Source: a virus. Taken from it: a stretch of 64,000 nt of DNA. The first letter of the stretch is position 1. Each line of letters opens with the position of its first letter. The translations under genes were made by a program, and so were the position numbers. The stretch spans positions 91,232-155,231 of IMG/VR virus record IMGVR_UViG_3300001398_000002, one strand, 5' to 3'. Below are positions 5,699 through 55,297 of this stretch, piece after piece. The notes beneath the pieces are model-generated. The model saw only the letters and a program-made list of their open reading frames with translations, was not told the DNA's origin and ran no database searches.

Positions 5699-5786
5699 GT
5701 GCTAGTGGAGCTGGGGAGAGTTGAACTCCCGTGCGCTTGCGTGCGAAGCAAGGCCCCGTCCCGACGGACAACCCCGTATCTACTAG
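5699..5786 (-). tRNA. tRNA-like element, anticodon CGC (Ala?)
   Basis: Clear anticodon arm CTTGC-TTCGCAC-GCAAG and T-arm GGGAG-TTCAACT-CTCCC. A 7-bp outer stem TAGTAGA/TCCACTA (one wobble) can form only if four extra bases sit between the T-stem and acceptor. Either an unusual tRNA or a pseudogene. Confidence 0.4.
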
Positions 5787-5872
5787 TGCTGTTGATAGGA
5801 CTCGAACCTACACGGGATTTGCATCCCACTGACACCTCAAGCCAGGGCGGCTACCAATTACGCCACAACAGC
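5787..5872 (-). tRNA. tRNA-Leu (GAG), class II
   Basis: Acceptor GCTGTTG/CAACAGC, discriminator A, stem CTGGC/GTCAG with loop TTGAGGT, variable arm GGGAT-GCAA-ATCCC. Confidence 0.87.
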
Positions 5873-6046
5873 ATGCTGTCGCTCTATACATCGTGAATGC
5901 GTTTGCTTGAAACGCTTCCACCATCTCCAGTATGTTAGTTCCTTGCCTCCGAAGCGGACGCCAGTCACCCAGGCTGAGGTCGCCTTGCATCTCTCACAAT
6001 GAGCTGTCTTGTGAGGGCCTAAGATAGTCCACTCTTTTCTGCTCGA
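5858..6046 (-). CDS. Small hypothetical protein (62 aa)
   Basis: Starts MSSRKEWTILGPHKTAHCER; preceded by AAAAGGGGTG, a usable ribosome site. HCERC could be half of a zinc site; the rest is Trp- and basic-rich. It starts 13 bases after the aminotransferase stop, so the two are probably co-transcribed. Its end runs 15 bases into tRNA-Leu(GAG). Confidence 0.45.
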   Translation of the reverse strand, partial: SSRKEWTILGPHKTAHCERCKATSAWVTGVRFGGKELTYWRWWKRFKQTHSRCIERQHAVVA

Positions 6047-6059
6047 CATGGCACCCCTT

Positions 6060-7049: not shown

Positions 7050-7109
7050 GCTCTAGCGATTTCACAGAGGGATTAGTCGGAGAGGGAACCCCGAGGAACC
7101 CGTTGTCTC

Positions 7110-7198
7110 TCACCCGATTTTCTTCAGGGCTTCTTGAATTGCCCAGTAGCCCCTAGGCTTGGTTTCGACACCTCGTTTTAAGCAATGCTTCTTGATAG
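7110..7198 (-). pseudogene. C-terminal debris of an HNH endonuclease
   Basis: The frame reads AIKKHCLKRGVETKPRGYW, then 10 more residues and TGA. This is the last part of the helix-turn-helix plus RGYW ending of the HNH proteins at 3275, 4955 and 10160. No HNH core remains. The fragment starts exactly at the 3' end of tRNA-Asp, so deletion or replacement has removed the rest of the gene. Confidence 0.75.
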
Positions 7199-7269
7199 CC
7201 CCGAAGGGAATCGAACCCTCCTCGACACAGCGTGACAAGCTGCCGTCTACACCAGTGGACTTCGGGAGC
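7196..7269 (-). tRNA. tRNA-Asp (GTC)
   Basis: Anticodon stem GCAGC/GCTGT with loop TTGTCAC, T-arm GAGGG-TTCGATT-CCCTT, acceptor GCTCCCG/CGGGGCT with one mismatch and two wobbles. Confidence 0.75.
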
Positions 7270-7279
7270 AAAGTATCAG

Positions 7280-7352
7280 GGTGACCAGCGGGGATCGAAC
7301 CCGTCTAAACGCGAGTCACAGTCGCGTGTCCATCCATTGAACATTGGCCACC
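7280..7352 (-). tRNA. tRNA-His (GTG)
   Basis: Acceptor GTGGCCA/TGGTCAC with C73 and a G just before position 1, the His identity pair. Anticodon stem CGCGA/TCGCG with loop CTGTGAC. Confidence 0.92.
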
Positions 7353-7359
7353 ATAGTAG

Positions 7360-7433
7360 CGTCCTCGGCAAGATTCGAACTTGCGACCTGAGCTTTAGGA
7401 AAGCCCTGCACTATCCAGCTGTGCTACGAGGAC
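7360..7433 (-). tRNA. tRNA-Arg (CCT)
   Basis: Acceptor GTCCTCG/CGAGGAC, discriminator G, anticodon stem GGGCT/AGCTC with loop TTCCTAA, T-arm GCAAG-TTCGAAT-CTTGC. Confidence 0.9.
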
Positions 7434-7447
7434 ATTGTATGCAGGTT

Positions 7448-7528
7448 CACCGTGGGGTGGGATCAAACCACCGACCTCAGAAGCACCAGGGCCTGCGCCT
7501 GGTATAGCCTCTATTTTGTTCCCGGACG
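7448..7528 (-). tRNA. Degenerate tRNA-like sequence
   Basis: Anticodon-like hairpin CCAGG-CGCAGGC-CCTGG and T-arm GGTGG-TTTGATC-CCACC are spaced as in a tRNA with an enlarged variable loop, but no 5' strand pairs with CCACGGT. Probably a pseudogene. Confidence 0.35.
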
Positions 7529-7545
7529 CGAACCAGGACACGGAG

Positions 7546-7630
7546 TGCCGTCGGAGGGACTTGAACCCTCATACCCACAAGGGGCCATCGTTCTCAGCGA
7601 TGCGTGTATGCCAAATTCCACCACGACGGC
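7546..7630 (-). tRNA. tRNA-Leu (GAG), second copy
   Basis: Acceptor GCCGTCG/CGACGGC, discriminator A, anticodon stem CATCG/CGATG with loop CTGAGAA, long variable arm, T-arm GAGGG-TTCAAGT-CCCTC. Sequence differs from the GAG tRNA at 5787. Confidence 0.88.
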
Positions 7631-7675
7631 GTATCTCGAACCATGTGCTAGTCTATCTATATGTTCGCTAGTACA

Positions 7676-8401
7676 ATGTCAAACCGCACTTGGTCCGACG
7701 AAGAACTGCGAAAAGCGCTGGCTTCCAGCTACACCATCGCAGATACCCTCAGAAATCTAGGGATTTCCACGAGTCCTGGCAACTACAAGACAGTCAAAGG
7801 GTACATCACACGCCTAGGCTTGGACATATCCCACCATACGGGTAGAGCCCACGGTACTTCTGTGACACCTCTCAAACAATCCCTTGAAGAGATCCTGGTC
7901 GAGGACAGCACATACCGCAACACGGTTGCCCTCAAACAGCGTCTATTCAAGGCAGGGTTGCTGAAAGAAGTTTGTCTAAAATGTGGGTTGCTTCCTGTTT
8001 GGGAAGAAGAACCCATCACACTCCAATTGGATCATATCAACGGAGACCCATTCGACAACCGCCTTGATAATCTAAGGATCTTGTGCCCCAACTGCCACTC
8101 TCAAACTAAGACCTTCACAAGGAGTAAAACTAAAGGGAGATACAAGAAACAAGCAGCCAAATGTTCTGACTGTCATGCACCTGTATTCAGAAACTCTAAA
8201 AGATGCGAGGCATGCTATGGTCAGAGCATAACCAAGATTAACTGGCCGTCTGCAAGGGAGTTGGCTAAACGAGTCTTGAACAGTTCTAAAGTTCAAGTAG
8301 CCAGAGAGCTGGGAGTTTCTGAAGCAGCCGTTCGCAAACGGATGAAGAAATTTGGTGGCTACCCTCCGTTACGATCGGAGCCCTCTATGGCTTCAACATA
8401 G
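7676..8401 (+). CDS. HNH homing endonuclease with N- and C-terminal HTH
   Basis: 241 aa from the ATG at 7676 (MSNRTWSDEELRKALASSYT). The N-terminus looks like a DNA-binding helical region (TIADTLRNLGIST). HNH core: CLKCGLLPVW, LQLDHINGDPFDNRLDNLRI, LCPNCHSQTKT; then CSDCHAPVF...CEACYG and a C-terminal HTH (VQVARELGVSEAAVRKRMKK). It is one of the few plus-strand genes in the tRNA array, so it must have its own promoter or be silent. Confidence 0.9.
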   Translation: MSNRTWSDEELRKALASSYTIADTLRNLGISTSPGNYKTVKGYITRLGLDISHHTGRAHGTSVTPLKQSLEEILVEDSTYRNTVALKQRLFKAGLLKEVCLKCGLLPVWEEEPITLQLDHINGDPFDNRLDNLRILCPNCHSQTKTFTRSKTKGRYKKQAAKCSDCHAPVFRNSKRCEACYGQSITKINWPSARELAKRVLNSSKVQVARELGVSEAAVRKRMKKFGGYPPLRSEPSMAST

Positions 8402-8432
8402 CGCTTCCACCAGGTTAGCTTGGTAGCCATTT

Positions 8433-8482
8433 GATTCGTTGTACGGGTGTCGAACCCGCCAGCCAGTCGAGCCTCCCACCAC
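8433..8482 (-). tRNA. tRNA 3'-end remnant
   Basis: T-arm GCGGG-TTCGACA-CCCGT followed by ACAACGA and A73 is recognisable, but no matching acceptor 5' strand or anticodon arm lies nearby. Probably debris. Confidence 0.35.
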
Positions 8483-8485
8483 TGA

Positions 8486-8553
8486 TACACGGGAATCGAA
8501 CCCGTAGGCCTGCATCGTCTGCTCACCCCTAGCAATGAATCAGTACCCCGTAG
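8486..8553 (-). tRNA. tRNA-like gene with a reduced anticodon arm
   Basis: Acceptor CTGATTC/GTATCAG pairs in 6 of 7, D-arm TGCT-AGGGGTG-AGCA is perfect and T-arm ACGGG-TTCGATT-CCCGT is perfect. Only 14 bases lie between D-stem and T-stem, too few for an anticodon arm plus variable loop. Confidence 0.5.
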
Positions 8554-8615
8554 GAGAATCGAACTCCTGTCACCTGGGTGAAAACCAAGTATCCTAACCG
8601 TTAGACGAACGGGGC
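8544..8615 (-). tRNA. tRNA-Glu (TTC)
   Basis: Acceptor GCCCCGT/ACGGGGT, discriminator A, anticodon stem CTTGG/CCAGG with loop TTTTCAC, D-arm TCGTCTAACGGTTAGGAT typical of Glu. Confidence 0.9.
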
Positions 8616-8624
8616 ATAGCGTAG

Positions 8625-8699
8625 TTGCGGAGACTCCGATTTGAACAGAGAACCTTCGGCTTATGAGGCCGACGCGCTACCAGGTTGCGCCATCCCGCA
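8625..8699 (-). tRNA. tRNA-fMet-like (CAT)
   Basis: The D-arm and anticodon arm (GCAACCTGGTAGCGCGTCGG, loop CTCATAA) follow the bacterial initiator pattern closely. Acceptor TGCGGGA/CTCCGCA, discriminator A. Position 1:72 is T-A instead of the usual unpaired C·A, so initiator function is uncertain. Confidence 0.85.
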
Positions 8700-8744
8700 A
8701 TAGAGATTGTAGACTACTTCTTTCGCCCCGTCTACAAGGGGTAG

Positions 8745-8815
8745 AGCCTCTCCTGAGAATCGAACTCAGCCCGACGGTATACGAAACCGTTGCTCCGCCT
8801 TGGAGCTAAAGAGGC
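8745..8815 (-). tRNA. tRNA-Thr (CGT)
   Basis: Acceptor GCCTCTT/GAGAGGC, discriminator T, anticodon stem ACGGT/ACCGT with loop TTCGTAT. Confidence 0.88.
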
Positions 8816-8944
8816 ATAGACACGGTCATCACGTTTCAGAGAAGTTGCCGGTGTTCCCGGTCGACTCTTTGACTGCAACCTCTTGCGAGGCGGTGACTGC
8901 CCAACCGAAGAAACCTTCGGCCCATGTGATGGGCAATGACTGAG

Positions 8945-9018
8945 AGCTGGCGATGGGATTCGAACCCACCTAAACTTGCTTACCATGCAAGTGCACTCCC
9001 AAGAGATGCTACGCCAGC
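8945..9018 (-). tRNA. tRNA-Thr (GGT)
   Basis: Acceptor GCTGGCG/CGCCAGC, discriminator T, anticodon stem CTTGC/GCAAG with loop ATGGTAA. The 130 bases between this and the previous tRNA hold no gene, only small hairpins. Confidence 0.9.
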
Positions 9019-9023
9019 GTGAG

Positions 9024-9096
9024 AGCCTACGAGAGGCATCGAACCTCCAACCTCCTGAGTACAAAACAGGGGCACCGCCAATTGTGCTACGTAGGC
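9024..9096 (-). tRNA. tRNA-Thr (TGT)
   Basis: Acceptor GCCTACG/CGTAGGC, discriminator T, loop TTTGTAC, T-arm GGAGG-TTCGATG-CCTCT. With CGT and GGT this makes three adjacent Thr tRNAs. Confidence 0.87.
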
Positions 9097-9126
9097 ATAA
9101 AAGAGTCTCCGAGTAGTGAAGCAGGG

Positions 9127-9245
9127 ATTGCTCTTGCGAGCCAGATTTACCGTCTGGTGCCCGGCCATTGGGCGTCTCCTTCACAAGAGGTCTCAGAGAT
9201 TGAGGCATCTTGTGAAGGAGGCAGGATTCGAACCTACTATTTGCG
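9127..9245 (-). tRNA. Permuted tRNA-Tyr-like gene (GTA)
   Basis: Minus strand order: T-arm GTAGG-TTCGAAT-CCTGC (9237-9221), acceptor 3' strand CTCCTTC (9220-9214), A73; linker 9209-9183; then the 5' half: acceptor GAAGGAG (9182-9176), D-arm GCCC-AATGGCC-GGGC, a complete anticodon arm CCAGA-CGGTAAA-TCTGG (9157-9141) and variable arm CTC-GCAA-GAG. Joined in canonical order this is a full class II tRNA with anticodon GTA and A73, as in tRNA-Tyr. CTCCTTCACAAG and CTTGTGAAGGAG form a 12-bp helix across the linker. Position 33 is G. A conventional tRNA-Tyr is at 13171-13253. Confidence 0.7.
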
Positions 9246-9272
9246 TGTATGCTTCTAGGAGTGGAGACTCCT

Positions 9273-9351
9273 TAGTCCAAGGTGCGGGAATCGAACCCAC
9301 ACTAGAGATACTGGGTGCTACCCAGGGGCGCCATCAACGTCCATCCGGACT
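9273..9351 (-). tRNA. Unusual tRNA, anticodon AGC (Ala?)
   Basis: Acceptor AGTCCGG/TTGGACT (7 pairs with two wobbles), anticodon arm CTGG-GTAGCAC-CCAG, T-arm GTGGG-TTCGATT-CCCGC. Three extra bases lie between T-stem and acceptor, giving an elongated acceptor-T stack. It may be functional or decaying. Confidence 0.5.
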
Positions 9352-9423
9352 CCGGCATTCCACTCTTCACCATCCCCGTAATCCCGATTGGTATAGCTAT
9401 AACCTTTCGGCGGGTTTCTTGGG

Positions 9424-9495
9424 AGCGAGTGGCGGGAATCGAACCCGCTGGCACTAGTTTGGAAAACTAGCGCCCCACCATGGGGCTTCACTCGC
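9424..9495 (-). tRNA. tRNA-Gly (TCC)
   Basis: Acceptor GCGAGTG/CACTCGC, discriminator T, anticodon stem CTAGT/ACTAG with loop TTTCCAA. Nearly identical to the copy at 10084-10155. Confidence 0.92.
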
Positions 9496-9871
9496 GTTTC
9501 TTATCGACGGCCTCATCGACCACCTTCTCAGACTTCTCTTTTTGGTCCTTCGTGCGGTTCTTAGGATCGTAGTCCCAATTGATCGTCCCACGAGGGTGCT
9601 CTTCCTGATGCTTAGTCAGGTCTTTCTTGGTCTTTTCGTCGTCGCGCTTTTCCTTAGCCTTGCCGCGGTTCTTTTCAGCCTTTTCCTGGTCCTTCTTGAT
9701 CTTAGCGTGAGGGGCTACCTCATCCTTGATCCTCTGGACATCGGCGTCCTCGACTCGATGCTTGGACTTGTCAGCCTTCGGGTGGGCGTCCAGATACGTT
9801 TTCAAGGCCTTTTCCGAGGGGAAGGTCTTGGCAAGCTTGTATCGGAGGGCGACGCGACTGGCTGCTGACAT
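9488..9871 (-). CDS. Charged protein with N-terminal RVAxRY peptide
   Basis: 127 aa from M29 of the open frame (9871); upstream codons are less protein-like. It begins MSAASRVALRYKLAKTF and continues SEKALKTYLDAHPKADKSKHRVE. Both elements recur in the protein at 19175-19741 (RVAARFAMEH..., LKDYLHEHPGADPKNHHVE). The C-terminal two thirds are Lys/Glu-rich and probably coiled or disordered. No known function; the shared N-terminus may be a targeting or processing peptide. The stop overlaps tRNA-Gly by a few bases. Confidence 0.7.
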   Translation of the reverse strand: MSAASRVALRYKLAKTFPSEKALKTYLDAHPKADKSKHRVEDADVQRIKDEVAPHAKIKKDQEKAEKNRGKAKEKRDDEKTKKDLTKHQEEHPRGTINWDYDPKNRTKDQKEKSEKVVDEAVDKKRE

Positions 9872-9910
9872 AGGTATGGCTCCTAAGTGGCCATACCTAT
9901 AAGTAAAAAT

Positions 9911-9985
9911 TGGCTCCTGAGGAAGGGATCGAACCTTCGCTAGGCGGATTAACAATCCGCTGCCTTACCGCTTGGCTACCCAGGA
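9911..9985 (-). tRNA. tRNA-Asn (GTT), CCA encoded
   Basis: Acceptor TCCTGGG/CTCAGGA, discriminator G, encoded CCA, anticodon stem GCGGA/TCCGC with loop TTGTTAA. Confidence 0.92.
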
Positions 9986-10000
9986 ATGCGTAACGGTCAG

Positions 10001-10072
10001 CACTAGGGGAAGGAATCGAACCCTCATCTTCTCCGGTAACAGCGGAACACATTGCCTTTATGCTACCCTAGT
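10001..10072 (-). tRNA. tRNA-Asn (GTT), second copy
   Basis: Acceptor ACTAGGG/CCCTAGT, discriminator G, anticodon stem TTCCG/CGGAG with loop CTGTTAC. Confidence 0.85.
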
Positions 10073-10083
10073 ATGTCGTCGAG

Positions 10084-10155
10084 AGCGGGTGGCGGGAATC
10101 GAACCCGCTGATCCTAGTTTGGAAAACTAGTGCCCCACCATGGGGCTTCACTCGC
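10084..10155 (-). tRNA. tRNA-Gly (TCC), second copy
   Basis: Nearly identical to 9424-9495 (same anticodon arm, D-arm and T-arm). The acceptor 3' strand is CACCCGC, leaving one A·C mismatch with GCGAGTG. Confidence 0.87.
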
Positions 10156-10159
10156 ATCG

Positions 10160-10903
10160 TTACTTTTTGGTCCAAAACCCTCTTGAGGGGGTGTCTATCC
10201 CTCTAGCTAAGCATCTTTGCTTCACTGCTGTACCAGAAACACCCAAATTTTTAGCGATCTTAGTGGTGGGCATCTCCCACACCAAAGATTTCAATTGAGA
10301 GTCAGAGGGCCAGTCAGCTTTTTCTCTTCGAGTAGCTATGGATGAAGAACACTTCTTTCCACAATAACAGTTACCCCTCTTAAATCTCCTAGGAGTGACC
10401 GATACGGGTGCCTCACACACCACACAGGCTGTCACAATTAAAGCCTGCTTCAAGCCTTTAGGTCCGTAATCCTCTGTCTGAGTGTGACAATTAGGGCACA
10501 GAAATCGAAGGTTACTCTTTGCGTTGTTGAGGAAGTCGCTGTCAATGTGATCAACTTGTAAAGTTAGTGGCCGACCACACCACTCGGGTCCTGCCCCACA
10601 GACAGCACACTTATGGGATACGCCATCTCTGAGAAGAGCGTTCCGTAGTGTAGCGTGATCAAGTCTGCGCGTGCTCACCTGAGAGAACACCTCTGCGGGT
10701 GTTCGTCTTACACGGCCCTTATTCGAAGACACCCCAATGAAGTGGCTTCGATCTATCCCGAACTCGTCCACTCGCCGCCTAATCAAAGACCACAAGGATC
10801 CACTGCTAGTGACCCCTATTTTACGCAACAACTCGGTAAAATTGGTGCTCTCTTTAACTAGAGGGGCGAGGTACTCGTAAGTGTACTTTCGTTGATGGGA
10901 CAT
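10160..10903 (-). CDS. HNH homing endonuclease with C-terminal HTH
   Basis: 247 aa from the ATG at 10903; the earlier in-frame start translates tRNA. HNH core: CAVCGAGPEWCGRPLTLQ, VDHIDSDFLNNAKSNLRF, LCPNCHTQTEDYG. A treble of Cys pairs follows (CVVCEAPV...CYCGKKC), then the HTH TKIAKNLGVSGTAVKQRC and the ending RGFW. Very close in layout to the protein at 3275-4048. The stop lies 4 bases before tRNA-Gly. Confidence 0.9.
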   Translation of the reverse strand: MSHQRKYTYEYLAPLVKESTNFTELLRKIGVTSSGSLWSLIRRRVDEFGIDRSHFIGVSSNKGRVRRTPAEVFSQVSTRRLDHATLRNALLRDGVSHKCAVCGAGPEWCGRPLTLQVDHIDSDFLNNAKSNLRFLCPNCHTQTEDYGPKGLKQALIVTACVVCEAPVSVTPRRFKRGNCYCGKKCSSSIATRREKADWPSDSQLKSLVWEMPTTKIAKNLGVSGTAVKQRCLARGIDTPSRGFWTKK

Positions 10904-10933
10904 ACAATGGGGAGGTTGATAGATGGTATATTG

Positions 10934-11017
10934 CTGACAGGGTTGGATTCGAACCAACGACGGTATTTCTACTTCCGGTTAACAGCCGGACCCCTGCTTC
11001 CACTCGGGTACCTGTCA
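10934..11017 (-). tRNA. Class II tRNA with Asn anticodon (GTT)
   Basis: Acceptor TGACAGG/CCTGTCA, discriminator G, D-stem CCC/GGG, anticodon stem TCCGG/CCGGA with loop CTGTTAA, variable arm GTA-GAAA-TAC, T-arm GTTGG-TTCGAAT-CCAAC. The long variable arm and D-arm are those of Ser/Tyr tRNAs, yet the anticodon reads Asn codons. Confidence 0.75.
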
Positions 11018-11022
11018 ATGAG

Positions 11023-11094
11023 AGCGGGTGACGGGAATCGAACCGACCGAATCGATCTTGGCAAGATCGGAATCCACCTTGGCGTAACACCCGC
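11023..11094 (-). tRNA. tRNA-Gly (GCC)
   Basis: Acceptor GCGGGTG/CACCCGC, discriminator T, anticodon stem CGATC/GATCG with loop TTGCCAA. The T-stem is weak (GTCGG/CCCGT). Confidence 0.82.
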
Positions 11095-11095
11095 G

Positions 11096-11809
11096 TTACT
11101 TTCTAGAAGAGTATTTAGCAGCACAGGACCTTCCACAGAAGGGTCCTTTATGGCCCTTCTGTGCATTAGCCTTCACATACCCTGCAACCTTAACCGCTTG
11201 CTGGCCACACTCCAAGCACGTTATTTTGACCATCGCAGTACCGTTGTGCTGCTTTGGGTCAGAGGGTGTCTCCATTGACTGGTCCTCAGCATATTGAAGA
11301 TTGAGCGGTACTGACTGCCAATCCTCGAAGTGGCCTTGTTCTCTTATGCTGTGCAACACAGGAACAATCAATTCCCACGCAGCATAAGGCATAGAGCCTC
11401 TCATGTAATTACAACGTAGGCAGGCGGGCATCACATTTGCTTGCACATGCCCTAAGGAGTTGTCTTTTCTATCGAGGGTCATGCGAAGTCGAGTCTCACC
11501 GCAGTACTGACACCCCTTGGCAATTAGGCACCGAATGACCTCTCTGTCCAAATCGTTGACCAATCCTCGTTTTCTGTCGGAGGCCTTACAGTCTACGTAA
11601 ATAGCCCAATCTGGATATAGACGCCGTCTAGCGGCAATTTTGCCATGGGCTTTTCGGCCCTCATTTTTGACTCTGTCAGGATTGGCCTTCTTCTTTTGGA
11701 GGTGCCTGCACTGGTTGCACTGAGTCCGACGACCAACTTTAGCCATCTCAAAAGAGGTCAGTAGCTTAGGGTCGTGGCACACAGAGCAAATGGCTGTTTC
11801 TGGTTGCAT
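11096..11809 (-). CDS. HNH endonuclease, DRKDNSLGH subfamily
   Basis: 237 aa. N-terminal zinc ribbon (CSVCHDPK...CNQCRH), then the nuclease core CQYCGETRLRMTLDRKDNSLG with the His after LG as catalytic candidate, then ACLRCNYMRGSMPYAAWE. The C-terminus has a further zinc ribbon (CLECGQQA...CGRSCAAKY). The core closely matches the HNH at 32151-32924 (LGLDRVDNSLGHTQHN, ACERCNYIRRDMPYEAW) and differs from the RGYW-type HNH genes of the array. It ends two bases from tRNA-Gly(GCC). Confidence 0.85.
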   Translation of the reverse strand: MQPETAICSVCHDPKLLTSFEMAKVGRRTQCNQCRHLQKKKANPDRVKNEGRKAHGKIAARRRLYPDWAIYVDCKASDRKRGLVNDLDREVIRCLIAKGCQYCGETRLRMTLDRKDNSLGHVQANVMPACLRCNYMRGSMPYAAWELIVPVLHSIREQGHFEDWQSVPLNLQYAEDQSMETPSDPKQHNGTAMVKITCLECGQQAVKVAGYVKANAQKGHKGPFCGRSCAAKYSSRK

Positions 11810-11860
11810 ACAAGGGGCAGGCTTACAAGTGGATTACTGCCCCTCCAATACGCCACTCAG

Positions 11861-11931
11861 TGCCCCCAAGGAGAATTGAACTCCTCTTACCAGGTTGAGA
11901 ACCTAGTGTCCTACCAATAGACGATGGGGGC
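11861..11931 (-). tRNA. tRNA-Glu (CTC)
   Basis: Acceptor GCCCCCA/TGGGGGC, discriminator A, anticodon stem CTAGG/CCTGG with loop TTCTCAA. Confidence 0.9.
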
Positions 11932-11937
11932 AAAATT

Positions 11938-11988
11938 GGGTGACAGTTCACACGCACTCCCGAAGGAGTTTTGTGTGCCCTGTCGCCC
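11938..11988. ncRNA. Long imperfect hairpin between tRNA genes
   Basis: Nested pairing GGGTGACAG/CTGTCGCCC, CACAC/GTGTG and ACTCC/GGAGT closed by CGAA gives one rod of about 19 bp. No ORF. The region 11989-12221 shows nothing else recognisable. It could be a processing signal or a small RNA. Confidence 0.4.
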
Positions 11989-12221
11989 ACGGACAAACCA
12001 GGAGAGAATTCCGAGTTCCTAATGGAGATGGTGCTCCACCGCTTTTTGCACTCTACCTTGTGAGGTCGAGCTTACTCTGCGGACAGCCAATCACAGCGCC
12101 GGCTTCATTCCGGATGTGTTGGATGCGTTTTTCCGAGCCCTGACGGGATCGGTGGAAACGAATTCAAAGTGTCCTGTTCAAATTTTCAAGGAGCAGGGAA
12201 GGTGTAAGCCTTCCTTACTAG

Positions 12222-12292
12222 TTCCGGGGCAAGGGATCGAACCTCGATTTACTGAGTCAGAGTCAGTTGGCCTACCATTAGCCGAACCCGGA
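12222..12292 (-). tRNA. tRNA-Gln (CTG)
   Basis: Acceptor TCCGGGT/CCCCGGA (one mismatch), discriminator A, anticodon stem ACTGA/TCAGT with loop CTCTGAC. Confidence 0.85.
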
Positions 12293-12316
12293 ATATTTCG
12301 TGTCTGTATCTCTTCG

Positions 12317-12391
12317 TGGGTGTAGGGGGACTTGAACCCGACCAACTAACCGCTTAAGAGGCGGCTACTCTACCATTGAGTTATACACCCG
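12317..12391 (-). tRNA. tRNA-Lys (CTT)
   Basis: Acceptor GGGTGTA/TACACCC, discriminator A, anticodon stem GCCGC/GCGGT with loop CTCTTAA. Confidence 0.9.
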
Positions 12392-13000
12392 TTGTCGTTG
12401 CCAGTAACCTCTACCTGGAGTCTCTATGCCTCTCAGTTTACATCGTTTGGAAATAGCTTTGTCGGAGACATTCAGTTGCTTTGCGACAGCACTCACAGGC
12501 ATCTGCCACACTATTTGGGCCAGCTCAGAATCGCTGGGCCAGCTCGTAACTTCCTGATCTTTGTGAGTACATAGTGTGCTGCAAAATTTGCGTTCAGGCT
12601 CATCTGTCTCAAAAACCTTTTTGCAAACAAGGCAGTAGTGACTGACTGCTTTTAACCCCGGTGGCCTCTCTGGTATGACTTCCCTTACCTTCACGGTAAG
12701 CTCTTCATGCTTAGAGTCCGTCAGCCGTTCATGCTCTTCCCTGTGACAATTGGAACACAGCATCTTACACTTGATCAGTTCTGCTTTGACACTTTCCCAA
12801 GATCTGGTGGAAGAAGCTATCCCGAAGTCTTTCTCATTTGGATCGGTGTGGTGGAATTCCAAAGCGGACAGACATTTGTCATATCCGCAGGTCTCACACT
12901 TGCCGCCCTTATAGTCGACTGCTCGTTGCTTCAACCTCTTGTGCCTAATCCTCATCTTCAGAGTGGTGTAATCTGAGTGTAGCTGTCGATCCCTTTGCAT
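12365..13000 (-). CDS. HNH homing endonuclease with C-terminal HTH
   Basis: 211 aa. HNH core: CETCGYDKCLSALEFHHTDPNEKDF (split here as CETCGY and LEFHHTDP), then MLCSNCHREEHE. A small zinc cluster (CLVCKKVF...CSTLC) and the HTH VSAVAKQLNVSDKAISKRC end in RGYW. The last 27 bases of the gene overlap the 5' part of tRNA-Lys(CTT), so the nuclease reading frame and tRNA share sequence. Confidence 0.87.
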   Translation of the reverse strand: MQRDRQLHSDYTTLKMRIRHKRLKQRAVDYKGGKCETCGYDKCLSALEFHHTDPNEKDFGIASSTRSWESVKAELIKCKMLCSNCHREEHERLTDSKHEELTVKVREVIPERPPGLKAVSHYCLVCKKVFETDEPERKFCSTLCTHKDQEVTSWPSDSELAQIVWQMPVSAVAKQLNVSDKAISKRCKLRGIETPGRGYWQRQRVYNSMVE

Positions 13001-13042
13001 ACTAGGATCGGTTTACAAGCAGATTAAGACACCCATTTAAGG

Positions 13043-13114
13043 TGGGCCAGGCCGGGTTCGAACCGGCGATCATTCGATTAAAAGTCGAAAGCTTTACCAC
13101 TTAGCTACTGGCCC
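13043..13114 (-). tRNA. tRNA-Lys (TTT)
   Basis: Acceptor GGGCCAG/CTGGCCC, discriminator A, anticodon stem TTCGA/TCGAA with loop CTTTTAA. Confidence 0.92.
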
Positions 13115-13170
13115 GCAGGGTGTCAGCAGCTCTGTTTGATTCTCCTCTCCATGATATGTGTTTCTCCTAG

Positions 13171-13253
13171 TGGGTCGCCTAGGAGTCGAACCTAGATAGC
13201 CAATTGACATCTGATTTACAGTCAGACCTGCGTCCCGGCGCAGCACACGACCC
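13171..13253 (-). tRNA. tRNA-Tyr (GTA), conventional
   Basis: Acceptor GGGTCGT/GCGACCC, discriminator A, anticodon stem TCTGA/TCAGA with loop CTGTAAA, class II variable arm. It is the first tRNA after the terminator at 13274. Confidence 0.9.
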
Positions 13254-37327: not shown

Positions 37328-37510
37328 TTGGCGTTAGCTTCTGTAACGATGGCAGGGTCTTTAGATCGCATCGACAGTGGTCTAGGGTACGATCTGGGTA
37401 ACATACAATGGGTACACAAAAACGTGAATCAGATGAAGTGGACCCTGAGCCAGGCAGCCTTTATAGAAATTTGTCTGGCTGTGGCAGGTAACATCAAGGA
37501 GGTCTCATGA
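37328..37510 (+). pseudogene. C-terminal fragment of an HNH homing endonuclease
   Basis: SLDRIDSGLGYDLGNIQWVH followed by KNVNQMKWTLSQAAFIEICL matches the second half of the T7-type His-Me finger nucleases (SLDRID...GNVQWV...N.MK...F). The N-terminal half with zinc Cys pairs is missing. It overlaps the ADP-ribosylglycohydrolase start by 4 bases. Confidence 0.7.
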
Positions 37511-38454
37511 TTCCGGCGACACTCACTGGCCTGGCTGTGGGGGATAGTCTTGGAGGGCCCTTTGAAACCCATCACTTCTCCTCGGAAGCGTTGCTGGACT
37601 GGGATGGTTCCTTCCGCTCATGGGACATCAACACCCTTCAGCCCAATCTGAAGCCAGGGCAGTGGACTGACGACACGAAGATGGCCACAGCCCTGGCCAC
37701 GAGCCTAGCGGCCAGCGGAACCTATGACCCCGTAGGGGCAGCTCAGAACTACATTGAGTGGTATGCCTCCAACGACCACAGAGGTATGGGCAAAGCCACC
37801 AAGGAGGCCCTGGAGCGTATCCTGAGTGGGCACCACTGGCTCGACTCCGGTGTGCCCAGCGAAGGGAACGGTTCGGCTATGCGGGCCGCCCCCCTGGGCT
37901 TGTTCTACTACAACAGCCCAGGAACGGCCGCCATCGCCGCCAGGATCGACTCTCGAATCACGCACAGCTCGGAGGCATCCGTCGAAGGGGCCGTTATCAT
38001 TGCAGTGGCTACAGCCCTGCTAGTGAATGCCCCTCCGCCAAACTTGGACCCACGCTCCGACGACAATTTCATCCGAAGAGTCCTGTACTACACAACGTAC
38101 GAGGGGGACATCATCTCGAAGCTCGTGGATGTCCAGGATCTCCTAAGTGAGCTTCCCACAGAGCCCGTCGCCCGCCTCAAGGAAACCTTGAAGGCTCTTT
38201 TGGAGATGGGGACCGGAGCCCACGTGGTTCAGACGGTTCCAGCCGCCCTCCTCTGTTTTCTGGCCACCAGCAACTTTGCCGATGCTGTTGAGATCGCTGT
38301 CCGAGCTGGCGGGGACACGGACACAACCGCCGCCATCACCGGGGCATTGGCAGGGACCTTCTACGGAGTAGGACAGGTTCAGCCCTACTTGAATGAGCTT
38401 GAAGACGCTCCCATTCTCCTTCGGCTGGACAAGGAACTGTACGAGAAACCATGA
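37507..38454 (+). CDS. ADP-ribosylglycohydrolase (DraG/ARH family)
   Basis: 315 aa. Metal and substrate motifs in order: GDSLGGPFE, GQWTDDTKMA, GNGSAMRAAPLG and GGDTDTTAAITGALAGTFYG. These make the binuclear Mg site of ARH enzymes, which remove ADP-ribose from proteins or nucleic acids. Full length. It could reverse host ADP-ribosylation or recycle ADP-ribose from NAD+-consuming defence; the NAD+ genes are close by (32.9-36.4 kb). Confidence 0.93.
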   Translation: MIPATLTGLAVGDSLGGPFETHHFSSEALLDWDGSFRSWDINTLQPNLKPGQWTDDTKMATALATSLAASGTYDPVGAAQNYIEWYASNDHRGMGKATKEALERILSGHHWLDSGVPSEGNGSAMRAAPLGLFYYNSPGTAAIAARIDSRITHSSEASVEGAVIIAVATALLVNAPPPNLDPRSDDNFIRRVLYYTTYEGDIISKLVDVQDLLSELPTEPVARLKETLKALLEMGTGAHVVQTVPAALLCFLATSNFADAVEIAVRAGGDTDTTAAITGALAGTFYGVGQVQPYLNELEDAPILLRLDKELYEKP

Positions 38455-40231: not shown

Positions 40232-40324
40232 GCCCATGTCGCTCAGTGGTCCAGAGCAGCAAATTCTAAATTTGCGTGAAATTCTAACGAATTCGGAACG
40301 TGGGTTCGAATCCCACCGTGGGCA
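40232..40324 (+). tRNA. Amber suppressor tRNA (anticodon CTA), class II
   Basis: Plus strand. Acceptor GCCCATG/CGTGGGC, discriminator A, D-arm GCTC-AGTGGTCCA-GAGC, anticodon stem GCAAA/TTTGC with loop TTCTAAA, long variable arm AATTC-TAAC-GAATT, T-arm GTGGG-TTCGAAT-CCCAC. All stems are sound. Anticodon CTA reads UAG. Class II with A73 suggests charging with Leu or Tyr. No CCA encoded. Confidence 0.88.
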
Positions 40325-40460
40325 CGGATATGCTTTCGTATGGCATTGTCGGATACTCCAAGTTCTCTAGCCAGCACAGTGAACGGGGTTGTCTTGAGAC
40401 GGTCTAAGATCGTCTCCAAGGGCGGCCATGCGATCTTTTTTGGGTGGGCCTTAGGGTCCT
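40325..40460 (-). pseudogene. HNH C-terminal (HTH) debris between two tRNAs
   Basis: The minus-strand frame reads KIAWPPLETILDRLKTTPFT, then VLARELGVSDNAIRKHIRA, the C-terminal HTH of the array HNH proteins. No nuclease core remains, and the frame runs on antisense into the amber tRNA. Confidence 0.7.
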
Positions 40461-40465
40461 TATTA

Positions 40466-40558
40466 GCTCCTATCGCTCAGCGGCCAGAGCAGCAGATTCT
40501 TAAAACTGCAAGAGTCCTTACGGACGAAGATCGTGGGTTCGAGTCCCACCGTGGGGCG
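40466..40558 (+). tRNA. Degraded or frameshift-type class II tRNA, sister of the amber tRNA
   Basis: It shares D-arm and T-arm with 40232-40324. The acceptor pairs only at GCTCC/GGGGC, and the anticodon region GCAGA-TTCTTAAA-ACTGC has an 8-base loop that could expose CTT, TTA or a four-base anticodon. Probably decaying, possibly a special suppressor. Confidence 0.45.
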
Positions 40559-40802: not shown

Positions 40803-41153
40803 TTACTTGAACGCCAACGGCAGACCTCGGCACAGCTTCTTTGCTGCCGGGCCGAATGCCACTGCTGTGAGTTCGTTGTCACGATCAGGTTCCCTAAAAG
40901 GTGCCGCGGATATACCACACACCCTAGCCTTTTCCAAAAGATGATTCAGCTAGGTCTCGTCCCTGACCTCCAGAAGAGCCAAGGTATTGGACTCTCGATA
41001 CCAGATGGCGTCTTCGAGGGGATACAGGTGGTTGAACTCACGGAGGGCGTGAGCGGCTTGAACCGCCCGCTGACCCACCGGGAGGTCCGTCCTGGTTACG
41101 AGATAGACTTTGGCGGGTTGCATCGGGGTTTTGCCCGAGTCTTGACTGCTCAT
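40803..41153 (-). CDS. PTH2-type peptidyl-tRNA hydrolase with in-frame TAG
   Basis: First part: KVYLVTRTDLPVGQRAVQAA, then HALREFNHLYPLEDAIWYRE and SNTLALLEVRDET, followed by TAG at 40950-40952. In the same frame the protein continues LNHLLEKARVCGISAAPFRE and PDRDNELTAVAFGPAAKKLC to TAA at 40803. The parts before and after are one PTH2-family domain. Full length needs UAG decoding; the CTA-anticodon tRNA at 40232 is 480 bases away. A recent nonsense mutation is the alternative. The start touches the TnpB stop. Confidence 0.85.
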
Positions 41154-42305
41154 TTAAGCCGCCCTTTCTCTGGACTTCGGCTGGCCTTGCAGGCCACGAA
41201 CCTCGCTCAAACCGAGCGCTTTTATATTCAATGCAGCGTTCTGATCTCGATCCATGATGAGTCCACACTGAGGGCAATCATGGACGCGGTCCCGAAGTCC
41301 CTTTGGGACAACGGTTCCGCAGGCATGACACCTCTGTGTGGTCCCTCTTGGATCTACCGCCACCGCTAATTTGCCAGCGTTCTCAGCTTTGCTTTTTAGG
41401 CAGTGGATTGTGATTGACCAGGATGCGTCCAAGATTGATTTCGCTAGAGACGAGCCCTCGATCATTGAGTGGATCGAGAGGTCTTCGTAACAGACTACAT
41501 CAAAGCGGTCGAAGAGAGATTTTGCCAGCTTTCTGGCGTGATCTAACCTCTGATTCTTGATGTGGGCATGAGCCCTTTGAACAAGGACTTTTGCTCGCTG
41601 GCGAGAGCGGCTGCCCCTGCGCTTACGTGATAAAGAACGTTGGCGCTTGGCTAACAACTCTTGGCCAGCTCGGAAGAGCCTAGGATTGTCAAGGACATCC
41701 CCGGAGTCCAATGTCGCGAAGTGGGTGAGTCCTAGGTCGATGCCGACGGAATTCGTGAGGTCGACATCAATCTTGGGGGCGACTCCTAGATCGCACTGGA
41801 AGATAACGAACCAACGATCCCCATCTCGCTTGACAATGATGTCCTTGATCGTCCCCTTGTGAGGTCGATACTGGTTGAACTTGACCAGGCCTAGCTTGGG
41901 GATAGGCACTTGAGCTGAGGAGCCTTTGACCTTGGAAATGACCTCACAGAAACGGCCCATCAACGAGAAAGAATCGTAACGCTTACTGCTCTTGAATCTG
42001 GGGAAGCCAGGGGCTTCACCAGATTTCACACGACGGAAAAATGCCTTGTAAGCAAGGTCAAGGCGCTTGAGGGGGGATCTGAGGATAGCTGCTGGGATTG
42101 CTCCGAATGCGGGGTCCTGAGATCGGATTAGGGTCAGTGACCGGTATTGGTCGTAACAGGAAGTCTCTTTTTTGAGCTTGACCCAAGAACCCTTCTTCTC
42201 TTCCAAGGCCCCGTTGTATAGGCTACCGCACGCTAAGAGCCAGTCGGCCAAAGTAGCCTCCTGGTCCTTCGTAGGATGTAACGGGTAGCGATAGGAGCGA
42301 ATCAT
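41154..42305 (-). CDS. tnpB: TnpB, copy 1 (RNA-guided RuvC-type nuclease)
   Basis: 383 aa, full length. N-terminal RSYRYPLHPTKDQEATL, then NSVGIDLGLTHFATL (first RuvC Asp), VCYEDLSI (Glu), the CHACGTVVP...CPQCG zinc finger, and MDRDQNAALNIKA (last Asp). TnpB nucleases of IS200/IS605 cut DNA guided by RNA made from the element end. No TnpA transposase is in the window. Starts within the 3' end of the small gene at 42302 (ATGA). Confidence 0.93.
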   Translation of the reverse strand: MIRSYRYPLHPTKDQEATLADWLLACGSLYNGALEEKKGSWVKLKKETSCYDQYRSLTLIRSQDPAFGAIPAAILRSPLKRLDLAYKAFFRRVKSGEAPGFPRFKSSKRYDSFSLMGRFCEVISKVKGSSAQVPIPKLGLVKFNQYRPHKGTIKDIIVKRDGDRWFVIFQCDLGVAPKIDVDLTNSVGIDLGLTHFATLDSGDVLDNPRLFRAGQELLAKRQRSLSRKRRGSRSRQRAKVLVQRAHAHIKNQRLDHARKLAKSLFDRFDVVCYEDLSIHSMIEGSSLAKSILDASWSITIHCLKSKAENAGKLAVAVDPRGTTQRCHACGTVVPKGLRDRVHDCPQCGLIMDRDQNAALNIKALGLSEVRGLQGQPKSRERAA

Positions 42306-47049: not shown

Positions 47050-48222
47050 ATGATCCGTTCTTATCGATACCCGCTGCATCCGACGAAGACCCAAGAAGTA
47101 ATTCTGCTACACTGGCTTCGCTTGTGTTGTAGCCTCTACAACGGGGCGTTGGAAGAGCGAATCAACTGCTATCGTAGATTCGGCAAAAGTTTGACCAGAT
47201 ACGATCAACAGAAATCCCTGACCCTCATTCGATCCCAAGACCCTGAATTCAGGACGATTCCAGCCACTATCCTCAGGACCCCTCTCAAGCGCCTTGACCA
47301 CGCCTACAAGGCATTCTTCCGTCGTCTAAAGTCTGGCGAAACGCCGGGATTCCCTCGCTTCCGTAGCTCTAAACGGTATAACTCTTTCTCGCTCATGGGA
47401 CAGTTCTCTGAGCCGATCCCAAAGGCCAGTGGCTATTCAGCCCGAGTCAAAATCCCTAAGTTAGGCCTAATCAAGTTCAACCAGTACCGCCCCCACAAGG
47501 GAATGCTCAAGGACATCTCAGTTCGCAGAGAGGGTAATCGCTGGTTCGTGATCTTTCAGTGTGACCTCGGAGCCGCTCCCGAGGTCGTTGTCGACCCCAC
47601 GAAGTCCGTCGGTATCGACCTCGGGTTGGCTCATTTCAGCACCCTCGATTCTGGTGAAACGATCGAGAACCCTCGCTTCTTCAAGGCCGGTCAGGATCTA
47701 TTGGCCAGGCGCCAACGCGCTCTGCAACGCAAGCGCCGGGGCAGCAACAGTCGGAAGCGAGCTAAGATCCTAGTCCAGCGGGCTCACGCCCATATCAAGA
47801 ATCAGCGCCTAGATCACGCTAGGAAGCTCGCTAAGAGTCTTTTCGAATTGAATGACATCGTCTGCTACGAAGACCTTTCAATAGCCCAGATGATCGAAGG
47901 CTCATATCTAGCCAAATCAATCACAGATGCATCCTGGTCAATCACCATTCACTGCCTAAAATGCAAAGCGGAAGAAGCTGGCAAGTTAGCAGTAGGGGTA
48001 GATCCAAGAGGGACCACACAGAGGTGTCATGCGTGCGGGTCCGTCGTCCCCAAGGGACTTCGGGACCGCGTCCATAGCTGCCCTGTCTGTGGTCTCGTCA
48101 TGGACAGAGATCAGAACGCTGCATTGAATATAAAAGCGCTCGGTTTGAGCGCGGTCTTGGGGATGAAGCCCCAGCCGAATTCCAGAGTCTATGGAAGAAA
48201 CCCTTTCATTAGCCGTTCGTAA
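47050..48222 (+). CDS. tnpB: TnpB, copy 2
   Basis: 390 aa, plus strand. RSYRYPLHPTKTQEVILLHW, KSVGIDLGLAHFSTL, VCYEDLSI, CHACGSVVP...CPVCG and MDRDQNAALNIKA keep the RuvC triad and zinc finger, so it may be active. About 80 percent identical in pattern to copy 1, but the N-terminus is more diverged. The reliable homology ends near LNIKALGLS; the last residues overlap the gene at 48189. Confidence 0.92.
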   Translation: MIRSYRYPLHPTKTQEVILLHWLRLCCSLYNGALEERINCYRRFGKSLTRYDQQKSLTLIRSQDPEFRTIPATILRTPLKRLDHAYKAFFRRLKSGETPGFPRFRSSKRYNSFSLMGQFSEPIPKASGYSARVKIPKLGLIKFNQYRPHKGMLKDISVRREGNRWFVIFQCDLGAAPEVVVDPTKSVGIDLGLAHFSTLDSGETIENPRFFKAGQDLLARRQRALQRKRRGSNSRKRAKILVQRAHAHIKNQRLDHARKLAKSLFELNDIVCYEDLSIAQMIEGSYLAKSITDASWSITIHCLKCKAEEAGKLAVGVDPRGTTQRCHACGSVVPKGLRDRVHSCPVCGLVMDRDQNAALNIKALGLSAVLGMKPQPNSRVYGRNPFISRS

Positions 48223-51490: not shown

Positions 51491-51757
51491 TTATACACCA
51501 ACTCCGGCAGTGGGGAATAGCTTTCGAACGATCATGACCGTGAAAGCGACTAGTTGGAGGCCGTAGCTGTAGATCAGAGCACTGCCTACTTTGGTGTGGA
51601 TGGTGTACGCACCCATGAGCCAAAAGCCCGTCCAGACTAGAAGGAGATACCACCAGGACATCCCCTTGGCCTGGCCTTCTCGCCATACTTTGATGACCTG
51701 AAGCCCTGAGGCAATCGTGAATAGCGTAGCGGCCGCCCAACCGAAGTATTGGATCAC
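51491..51757 (-). CDS. SemiSWEET/PQ-loop-like membrane protein
   Basis: 88 aa with three hydrophobic helices. FGWAAATLFTIASGLQVIKV, then WREGQAKGMSWWYLLLVWTG follows the PQ-loop repeat (GL-QV replaces PQ). SemiSWEETs dimerise to carry sugars; a phage copy is unusual. The 3' end overlaps the GGTGTATAAT motif of the RRM gene. Confidence 0.65.
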   Translation of the reverse strand: MIQYFGWAAATLFTIASGLQVIKVWREGQAKGMSWWYLLLVWTGFWLMGAYTIHTKVGSALIYSYGLQLVAFTVMIVRKLFPTAGVGV

Positions 51758-52942
51758 AAAGGATCCGCTACAAAGAAGGTTTCTGAGGTTTTGCTTAAAA
51801 CTTCTAGCTTAAGCTTCGGCTGGCCTTGCAGGCCGTTGACCGCGCTCAAACCGAGCGCTTTGATATTTAGGGCAGCGTTCTGATCTCTGTCCATGACGAG
51901 ACCACAGAAAGGGCAATTGTGGACGCGGACCCGAAGTCCCTTGGGGACGATCTCCCCGCACCCATGGCACCTCTGTGTGGTTCCCCTTGGATCAACCCCA
52001 ATTGCCAGTTTGCCAGCATTCTCAGCTTTGCATCTTAGGCACTTGAGGAGTATAGACCAACCCGCATCCGAGATTGCCTTGCTCAGGTTTCCCTGAATCA
52101 TGTTTGCTATCTGAAGGTTCTCGTAACAGACCACATCGAACCGACTGAAGAGAAACTTTGCCAGCTTCCTAGCGTGATCTAACCTCTGATTCTTGATATG
52201 AAGGTGGGCTCTTTGAACGAGGGTCTTAGCCCGTTGTCTAGACCTGCTGCCTCTGCGCTTACGCGATAGCTTGCGTTGGCGCTTCGCAAGGGTCTCTTGT
52301 CCCGCCTTGAAGAACCTGGGGTTCTCGACCGTCTCACCGGAGTCTAATGTCGCGAAGTGGGTGAGCCCTAGGTCAATACCGACGGACTTCGTGGAGTCGA
52401 CAACGGTCTCTGGGGAGGTTCCCAAATCGCACTGGAAGATCACGAACCATTTACCGGCCTCATGCTTGACAACGGTATTTCTGATCTTCCCAAGATGTGG
52501 TCGATACTGATTGAACTTAACAAGACCTAATTTTGGGACTCTCACTAAGGCTGATGATCCTTCGGTCTTTGGGACGACCTTAGAGGCTGATATCATTAGC
52601 GAGAAAGAGTTGTAACGCTTGCTGCTCTTGAACCGTGGGAAGCCAGGCGTTTCCTCAGACTGCACGCGGCGGAAAAATGCCTTGTAGGAGTGATCCAAGC
52701 GTTTCAAAGGAGACCTCAGGATAGAAGCGGGGATAGCTTCGAATTCAGGGTCTTGCCCGCGAATGGTGGTCAAGGACTTTGATTGATCAACGTAGGTAAT
52801 TCCCTTTTTTGAGTCGACTCCAAGAACCCCTACGTTCTTCTAGAGCCCCGTTGTAGAGACTACAGCACACGCGAAGCCAGTGAAGCAAGGTCGCTTCCTG
52901 GCCCTTCGTCGGATGCAGGGGGTATCGGTAGGAACGATCCAT
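51754..52942 (-). pseudogene. TnpB, copy 3, frameshifted near the N-terminus
   Basis: Begins MDRSYRYPLHPTKGQEATLL at 52942. After SRLKK a run of six A (near 52800) shifts the frame; with one A fewer it joins ITYVDQSKSLTTIRGQDPEF and the rest. Later motifs KSVGIDLGLTHFATL, CYENLQ, CHGCGEIVP...CPFCG and MDRDQNAALNIKA are intact. A sequencing error in the A run is possible. Confidence 0.85.
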
Positions 52943-53008
52943 AGAAATGGGGACTCACTGTACTCTATAAATTTGCCTCTTGCAACAGTGGGCGTTAGCC
53001 TTTCACTC

Positions 53009-53092
53009 ATGGAAAATTATAAGGACGGCTTCTGGCACGGGTTCATGGTAGCACTCTTCATCTTGGGACTACTGGCGGTTTTTGGCACCTAA
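53009..53092 (+). CDS. Small membrane protein (27 aa)
   Basis: MENYKDGFWHGFMVALFILG then LLAVFGT: one transmembrane helix. Short and overlapping the converging gene 53069, so moderate support only. Confidence 0.45.
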   Translation: MENYKDGFWHGFMVALFILGLLAVFGT

Positions 53093-53844: not shown

Positions 53845-54107
53845 TCCCCAGCTCGAATGCGTCAAATGCGTCAGATGCGTCAGACGTGATGGAATCCATC
53901 AGCAAAGTGGTCGAACAGTTGCCTGACGACAAGCAAAAGGCCGTCTGGGATAGATTCCACGAGGCCGCTACGCTTTTTCAAGAGGGTAGGCTGGCCGCAG
54001 ATGAGTTCGTTCGACGAATCATCCCAGCCAACTTGTTCACGGCGGAAGAGCGGGCGATCTTGGAAGCCAAGGGAGCTTACCCCCAATACGCCAACAGCCT
54101 TAATTAA
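53841..54107 (+). CDS. Hypothetical protein with NASDAS repeat (88 aa)
   Basis: MIPSSNASNASDASDVMESI: the start is encoded by three tandem near-copies of the 9-mer GCGTCAGAT (about 53858-53884). The rest is helical. Stop overlaps the TnpB copy 4 stop. Confidence 0.65.
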   Translation: MIPSSNASNASDASDVMESISKVVEQLPDDKQKAVWDRFHEAATLFQEGRLAADEFVRRIIPANLFTAEERAILEAKGAYPQYANSLN

Positions 54108-55297
54108 CCTGCTGTCTTTGAGCAGGTTCGTGTCCGGGTTTTGCCCATAAAATCTGAGGATCCTATGGACTTCGGCTGGTCAAATCGACCACTGACCACG
54201 CTCAAACCGAGCGCTTTGATGTTACATCCTGCATTCTGGTCACGATCCATGATGAGGCCGCACTCTGGGCAATCATGGACGCGGTCACGGAGTCCCTTGG
54301 GGACAACGGTTCCGCAGGCATGACACCTCTGTGTGGTCCCTCTTGGATCTACCCCTACCGCTAATTTGCCAGCTTCTTCCGCTTTGCACTTTAGGCAGTG
54401 GATTGTAATTGACCAGGACGCATCTACGATTGATTTCGCTAGATAAGAACCTTCGATCATTGACTGGATCGTGAGGTCTTCGTAACAGACAACGTCAAAC
54501 CGACTGAAGAGTGACTTTGCCAGCTTCCTAGCGTGATCTAATCGCTGATTCTTGATGTGAGCGTGAGCCCTCTGGACAAGGATTTTGGCCCGCTTCCGAC
54601 TAGAACTGCCCTTGCGCTTGCGTTGCAGGGCACGCTGCCGCCGAGCCAGAAGTTCCTGCCCCGCCTTGAAGAACCTGGGGTTCTCGATCGTCTCACCGGA
54701 ATCCAGAGTCGCGAAATGGGTGAGTCCCAGGTCGATACCGACGGACTTCGTGGAGTCGACAACGGTCTCTGGGGAGGTTCCCAAATCGCACTGGAAAATC
54801 ACGAACCAGCGATCCCCTTCTCGCTTGACGAGGATGTCCTTGATCGTTCCCTTGTGAGGGCGGTACTGATTGAAATTCACCAAACCCAATTTGGGGATTT
54901 TGACTTGGGCTGAGCGTTCTTTGATCTTGGGGAGTACTTTAGAGGATCTCATCAACGAAAATGAATCATACCTCTTGCTACCTTTGATCGCTCCTTCGAC
55001 GGATTCTTCCGACGCCTAAAGTCTGGCGAAACACCAGGCTTCCCGCGGTTCAAGTCGCTTAAGCGCTGATCTCAGCACCATCATTGGGATCACTTCAAAA
55101 GCAGGATCCTGAGATCTGATGAGAGTCAGTGACCGGGTCTGATCATTGTAGGAAACGCCCTTTTTGAGCCTGACCCACGAGGACTTCTTCTCTTCCAGGG
55201 CTCCATTGTAAAGACTGCCGCATGTGAGAAGCCAGCCCCTCATGGTCGCTTCCTGACCCCTCGTTGGATGCAGTTGGTAACGAAAGGAACGGATCAT
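54104..55297 (-). pseudogene. TnpB, copy 4, with internal inversion
   Basis: Minus-strand parts: RSFRYQLHPTRGQEATMRGW...LRSALKRL (55297-55056) and SKRYDSFSLM...KSVGIDLGLTHFATL...MDRDQNAGCNIKALGLS (about 54985-54104). Between them, 54986-55055 reads as TnpB on the plus strand (DGFFRRLKSGETPGFPRFKS), so that block is inverted. The final Asp motif also reads NAGCN instead of NAALN. Not functional as one protein. Confidence 0.9.
54986..55055 (+). other. 70-bp inverted block in TnpB copy 4
   Basis: Plus strand encodes FFRRLKSGETPGFPRFKS, the segment missing from the minus-strand frame of copy 4. Confidence 0.85.

Follow-up and report, generated by a model that had tools for sequence, protein, structure and literature searches.

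Divergent PTH2-like genes of phages carry in-frame stop codons beside stop-decoding tRNAs and are candidate targets of suppression

Background

Phage tRNAs with anticodon CTA and genetic code 15, in which TAG stands for Gln as in crAss-like and Lak phages, are known to occur together (PMC9523058, PMC13037316). The loci described here are like code 15 in that a phage CTA tRNA would read an in-frame TAG and unlike it in extent, as many genes contain TAG in code 15 phages whereas here it is essentially one gene family that does so, usually at about codon 2-9, and the genomes concerned still use TAG as a stop. A synthetic suppressor-tRNA feedforward loop (PMC7969014) is a comparable arrangement in which a suppressor tRNA gates its target via an amber codon; that loop was engineered in E. 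coli, whereas the phage system would be a natural one that gates a tRNA-acting fold and in which stop and anticodon co-vary.

Orphan amber suppressors, in phages without known recoding as here, are present in XacN1 and Summit, and targets of their amber suppressor tRNAs were not found in the papers on these phages (PMC5852040 and PMC9022506). The suppressor tRNAs of non-recoded phages had no known target, and the PTH2-like family appears to be a widespread one, present in isolates that include mycobacteriophages, GAP32, ME3, XacN1 and CM1. Canonical archaeal/eukaryotic-type PTH2 is itself noted in a survey of jumbo phages (PMC7824862), which makes no mention of suppressor tRNAs or stop codons. 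The PTH2-like family shares its fold and superfamily with that protein, often with both in one phage, and is set apart from it in being divergent, in lacking the lysine of the GKxxA motif, in carrying a stop and in adjoining stop-decoding tRNAs. Our literature search returned no report tying PTH2 to suppressor tRNAs; many subscription papers lay outside its scope and priority is therefore uncertain.

Results

An amber codon within the PTH2-like gene of the window

The analysed window makes up the right-hand 64 kb of the virus record, which totals 155,231 bases. A preliminary description had placed here a PTH2-type gene interrupted by TAG and a structurally sound CTA tRNA close to it, and had proposed that the complete hydrolase appears once the suppressor tRNA is made. 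The features of the locus, in window coordinates, are as follows.

40803..41153, minus strand: PTH2-like gene, encoding 116 residues if the amber is decoded, ending at TAA
40950..40952, minus strand: in-frame amber at codon 68 (ACC TAG CTG), in the first turn of a predicted helix
41154..42305, minus strand: intact TnpB (IS605 OrfB), directly upstream, its TAA abutting the ATG of the PTH2-like gene
40232..40324, plus strand: tRNA with anticodon CTA, cognate to the amber, with a long variable arm and a full acceptor stem
about 40475-40549, plus strand: degenerate duplicate of the CTA tRNA, Rfam 22.3 bits, under the gathering score of 29

The minus-strand frame from 41153 to 40803 opens with MSSQDSGKTPMQPAKVYLVTRTDLPVG, reaches the amber through SNTLALLEVRDET, resumes with LNHLLEKARVCG and closes with FREPDRDNELTAVAFGPAAKKLCRGLPLAFK before the TAA, and besides the TAG at 40950-40952, its sole internal stop, it holds no further stop or frameshift. 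When a residue is assigned to the amber, the frame scores 34 bits against Pfam PTH2 (PF01981; cut-off 23), and it is the only PTH2 match in the 155-kb record, marked '1 TAG'. The AlphaFold2 model, for which 30 aligned phage sequences were the input, has a mean pLDDT of 94.5, and the predicted structure matches the solved PTH2s 2zv3, 3erj, 1q7s and 1xty with a TM of about 0.7-0.77; on this model we confidently assign the protein to the PTH2 fold. The conservation noted earlier on both sides of the TAG was borne out, the ratio of identity to clade mates after versus before the amber being 0.95 for the window gene and 0.88 +/- 0.12 when intact mates are compared pairwise, with 9/9 of the conserved residues checked present, and the gene appears free of decay downstream of the amber. 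The amber falls in an alignment column that varies greatly across the family (Q 9, K 8, E 7, A 6, D 6; also G, H and S), so that most inserted residues should be tolerated.

The CTA tRNA was called by ARAGORN at 40232-40325 and by Rfam at 40232-40324 (59.2 bits; gathering score 29), in agreement with the preliminary description. It lies ~480 bp from the PTH2-like gene and on the opposite strand, the strands (gene minus, tRNA plus) not having been given before. With its long variable arm, G1-C72 and A73 it is a candidate Leu, Tyr or Ser type, and judged by its sequence it is an intact tRNA and a putative amber suppressor. The degenerate copy, which sits between this tRNA and the gene, has an extra anticodon-loop base (TTCTTAAA) and an imperfect acceptor stem, and its best alignment partner among all tRNAs of the genome is the CTA tRNA. 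Near the locus Rfam detected tRNAs and nothing else. An array of 38 minus-strand tRNA genes also occupies 25-13253 of the window, 27 kb from the CTA tRNA, which is on the other strand.

A divergent family distinct from canonical PTH2

The tRNA-linked PTH2-like proteins reach Pfam scores of about 19-45 bits, whereas canonical phage PTH2s mostly score 98-118 bits. The conserved lysine of the GKxxA(Q) motif is catalytically important in Sulfolobus Pth2. This residue is absent from the divergent family, which has Q, L, T, Y and others instead, and is retained in 11/11 canonical PTH2 paralogues. With the lysine lost, catalysis is uncertain and enzyme activity is not to be assumed for the PTH2-like protein, which could possibly act by binding alone. 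The complete PTH2 enzyme of the preliminary description thus holds as to fold and score, and the protein is better regarded as a divergent paralogue of uncertain activity. Several phages hold a canonical PTH2 elsewhere in the genome beside the divergent one, and such second copies, with a normal start and the conserved lysine, were seen at W02 16397, W07 174048 and G004 280580, among others.

An HD-signature domain is fused ahead of the PTH2-like domain in XacN1 (L055, 5440-6300), CM1 (L054), L030 and L160; Pfam HD scored over its cut-off in L030 and under it in CM1, and none was detected in XacN1. At L140 the same-frame gene directly upstream, similar to a small HD-type (p)ppGpp hydrolase, runs into the MA-TAG start. 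One scan covering some 85,000 species of bacteria and archaea returned a single relative, in Achromobacter (L212), whose gene opens with a plain start and has no neighbouring tRNA, and the family is therefore essentially phage-borne at the sensitivity of that scan.

A stop codon close to the start across the family

An early stop was present in 63/97 unique loci (58 amber, 5 opal), as curated by eye; the loci are interrelated and fall into 61 clusters at 60% identity, with the early stop an amber in 30 of these and an opal in 5. Such genes open with a start codon followed by 0-7 others, after which come the stop (at about codons 2-9) and the conserved domain, as in the following openings.

L020: MS-TAG-IKEGDKL
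L019: MTH-TAG-IDNKL
L044: MK-TAG-INNHKL
ME3: MT-TAG-IHENKK
GAP32: MAQ-TAG-NEKTW
Arash: ML-TAG-NKHW
LR756501 (735-kb): MS-TAG-IYKL
Myrna: V-TAG-VTRES
Cane17: M-TAG-VTNPQ
ahead of the XacN1 fusion: MK-TAG-TIKAMK

The HD fusions share this feature, with openings MK-TAG (in both XacN1 and CM1), MNSNTGW-TAG and MNT-TAG, and in XacN1 the HD-PTH2-like ORF364, which follows MK-TAG, makes a clear candidate for the target of that phage's CUA tRNAs. Among non-fused cases, 51/58 offer no alternative start (ATG, GTG or TTG) in the stretch from the stop to strand 1 of the domain, and a Shine-Dalgarno-like core precedes the start in 39/58 (background 21%). The base 3' of the early stop (n=58) is A in 40, G in 15, C in 3 and T in 0. 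A context rich in A and G and free of T after the stop is generally held to be favourable to suppression. In four mycobacteriophage cases a GTG, the annotated start, directly follows the TAG and the start is ambiguous there. If the early stop is indeed read, present annotation misses PTH2-like genes or sets their starts too late.

Early stops are absent from the canonical PTH2 paralogues of such phages (0/11). Ambers further into the gene also occur, codon 68 of the window among them: L059 and L150 have a second amber in a loop before strand 2 (FP-TAG-IYEQW and PP-TAG-RHPNI), L140 has one in a similar place (PP-TAG-EDHPH), and one clade mate of the window gene, L165, has EHG-TAG-VAKQW.

We also looked for other target genes with an early stop. 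Fusions of the XacN1/CM1 type aside, the 12 TAG, 20 TGA and 4 TAA candidates in 4.25 Mb of strand are at chance level and were rejected; they are mostly antisense frames, and one TAG case is the CM1 fusion itself.

Stop-decoding tRNAs cluster with the gene and match its stop

At 50 loci, 22/52 of the tRNAs lying within 500 bp of the PTH2-like gene were stop-decoding, as were 0/52 of those at 4-6.5 kb, with an odds ratio of 9.1 (p=5e-8) for distances under 1.5 kb versus further. Dozens of distant phages share the pair of PTH2-like gene and stop-decoding tRNA, with both on the same strand in all loci but the window. Where the fetched DNA contained both an early stop and a stop-decoding tRNA, the stop is cognate to the nearest such tRNA in 45/45 loci (TAG/CTA 41/41, TGA/TCA 4/4; Fisher 6.7e-6, the loci not being fully independent). 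On a maximum-likelihood tree, many of whose forks are weakly resolved, opal represents 5 separate changes in a mostly amber background. Such matching is as expected if selection sees the decoding of the codon, and leader peptides or chance fit it badly. From these sequences the PTH2-like gene looks like a dedicated target of phage suppressor tRNAs.

The association extends beyond genes with an early stop, as 15/61 clusters have the CTA tRNA without one. The window and its nearest clade mates are without a start-proximal amber and on the tree the CTA tRNA is kept in their clade despite this. That the pairing is kept in the 15 clusters suggests that the protein is probably functionally tied to the tRNA and not merely its target. 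Conversely, the CTA tRNA is missing from the fetched DNA in 12 amber clusters. Among the large genomes checked further, a CTA tRNA was present in six, namely XacN1 (PMC5852040), CM1, LR756511, G024, G025 and G027, and a strict pattern found none in G023, G026, G015 and LR745206; the genome-wide CTA pattern also matched tRNA-Arg(TCT), for which reason matched regions were re-scanned.

No TAA gate was seen in the PTH2-like gene beside TTA-anticodon tRNAs (L016 and the Lak phages L050 and L053). Lak phages with a TTA tRNA near the PTH2-like gene additionally read TAG as sense. Odd tRNAs adjoin the gene at L017 (6378-6455), L026 (8256-8331), L027 (5882-5959), L025, L032 and L052, with anticodon loops of eight bases, read CCTA or TTCG, plus AAT anticodons, and could possibly be frameshift-type decoders.

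Alternative explanations

Given the known association of phage CTA tRNAs with code 15, TAG might be sense throughout these genomes and the PTH2-like gene one of many that contain it. We scanned for stop junctions by a codon-based method that requires strong coding character in 120 nt on each side of the stop, and whose strictness makes it miss even the PTH2-like gene, so that it informs on general recoding only. The whole window record gave 0 TAG, 1 TAA and 2 TGA junctions, and the contig of L150 and 160 kb of LR756501 gave 0 TAG, against 77 TAG junctions for the control, 160 kb from a recoded Lak phage. TAG ends 2/80 high-scoring genes in the window genome, while Myrna uses terminal TAG normally, in 30% of its genes, and G004, which has a TTA tRNA, ends 34% of its genes in TAA; the stop-decoding tRNAs are therefore not tools of general recoding, and with 30% TAG endings suppression in Myrna cannot be strong and general. 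With 0 TAG junctions in 155 kb we rejected general recoding for the window genome, it is effectively refuted in every non-Lak genome examined, and as an account of the PTH2-like stop it is hardly credible. The same use of stops bears on a further proposal, in which the suppressor tRNA disrupts host termination as a means of shut-off and the gated PTH2-like protein is an antidote, made in proportion to the poison, that clears peptidyl-tRNAs. The 15 clusters that keep the pair without an early stop agree with a product tied to the tRNA beyond the role of target, but strong suppression would require a phage to keep the cognate stop out of its own genes, which neither Myrna nor G004 does; since both use it freely, host shut-off via strong suppression is unsupported, and we hold the antidote explanation to be decidedly unlikely. 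The early stop could also be the end of a leader mini-ORF, with the protein starting after it at GTG or a rare ATT and the tRNA unrelated, as the annotated GTG directly after TAG in mycobacteriophages and an ATT after TAG in many others might suggest. Many loci, however, carry the non-start codons AAC, AAT, ACC, GAC, AGA or CTA after the stop, the SD cores lie ahead of the ATG, and this explanation predicts neither the matching of TAG with CTA and TGA with TCA through separate switches nor ambers inside PTH2-like genes, making it very unlikely.

A different question is whether the window copy is dead, through an ordinary nonsense mutation that followed TnpB insertion and is tolerated or on the way to loss, in a family that may otherwise be gated. 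TnpB abuts the gene, the second tRNA copy is degenerate and two other TnpB copies of the window also have TAGs. In addition, the preliminary description had counted relatives with a sense codon at this position and an unchanged tRNA set against its proposal and, taken literally, the comparison goes against it: close relatives do have a sense codon there, and near the gene in these relatives lay CTA, TTA and eight-base-loop CCTA tRNAs. Elsewhere in the family, however, the stops lie at about codons 2-9, and internal ambers are found in the clade mate L165 as well as in L059, L150 and L140. The single lesion in the frame, the equal conservation before and after the amber, the checked residues and the intact cognate tRNA also argue against decay, which we consider unlikely. 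The window is an atypical member of its family in the position of its stop, in its opposite-strand tRNA and in the C that follows the TAG, as in only 3/58 early stops, and its amber, seen in a single genome, may have arisen by recent nonsense mutation or through misassembly.

Proposed mechanism

We propose that the PTH2-like family is suppressor-gated, the stop being decoded by the phage's own neighbouring tRNA, and place the probability of this at roughly 0.7. Without the suppressor a ribosome would terminate after a peptide of 1-8 residues, and with it the full PTH2-like protein would be made, TGA and a tRNA of anticodon TCA taking the place of TAG and CTA in a few lineages. We infer from these patterns both that readthrough occurs in infection and what it serves. 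In the window lineage the CTA tRNA (40232-40324) would insert an amino acid at the tolerant codon 68. The suppressor-dependent expression put forward in the preliminary description is thus strongly supported for the family by the matched start-proximal stops, and at the window codon itself the amber is likely to be read. This suggests that phages naturally use nonsense suppression to gate a protein concerned with translation quality.

The likeliest purpose would be feedback, in which the protein made by suppression binds or hydrolyses the suppressor or short peptidyl-tRNAs that have dropped off, an action that would limit the side effects of suppression. The gate is laid out like a minigene, where a start, one to a few codons and a stop give drop-off that is handled by Pth. 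The bar minigene of phage lambda is such a case of early peptidyl-tRNA drop-off. Early drop-off is documented (PMC10192219); here the minigene would be the 5' end of a PTH-like gene, and the link to drop-off is only suggestive. A self-regulating suppression module, in which the PTH2-like protein needs the tRNA and acts back on the suppressor or on early dropped-off peptidyl-tRNAs, is put forward tentatively, as somewhat short of an even chance. If true, nonsense suppression would here be the basis of a natural circuit with negative feedback whose stop and anticodon switch together in evolution.

TnpB copies and other features of the window

The TnpB directly upstream is probably a neighbour and not part of the module. 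The window has four TnpB copies, at 51754-53010 (minus), 54104-55297 (minus), 47050-48222 (plus) and 41154-42305 (minus), with nucleotide identities among them of about 73-75%. Homology between the copies ends within the gene. The copies at 51754-53010 and 54104-55297 each have an in-frame TAG and a degraded look. At 37507-38454 on the plus strand the window also encodes a strong match to ADP-ribosylglycohydrolase (Pfam, 235 bits).
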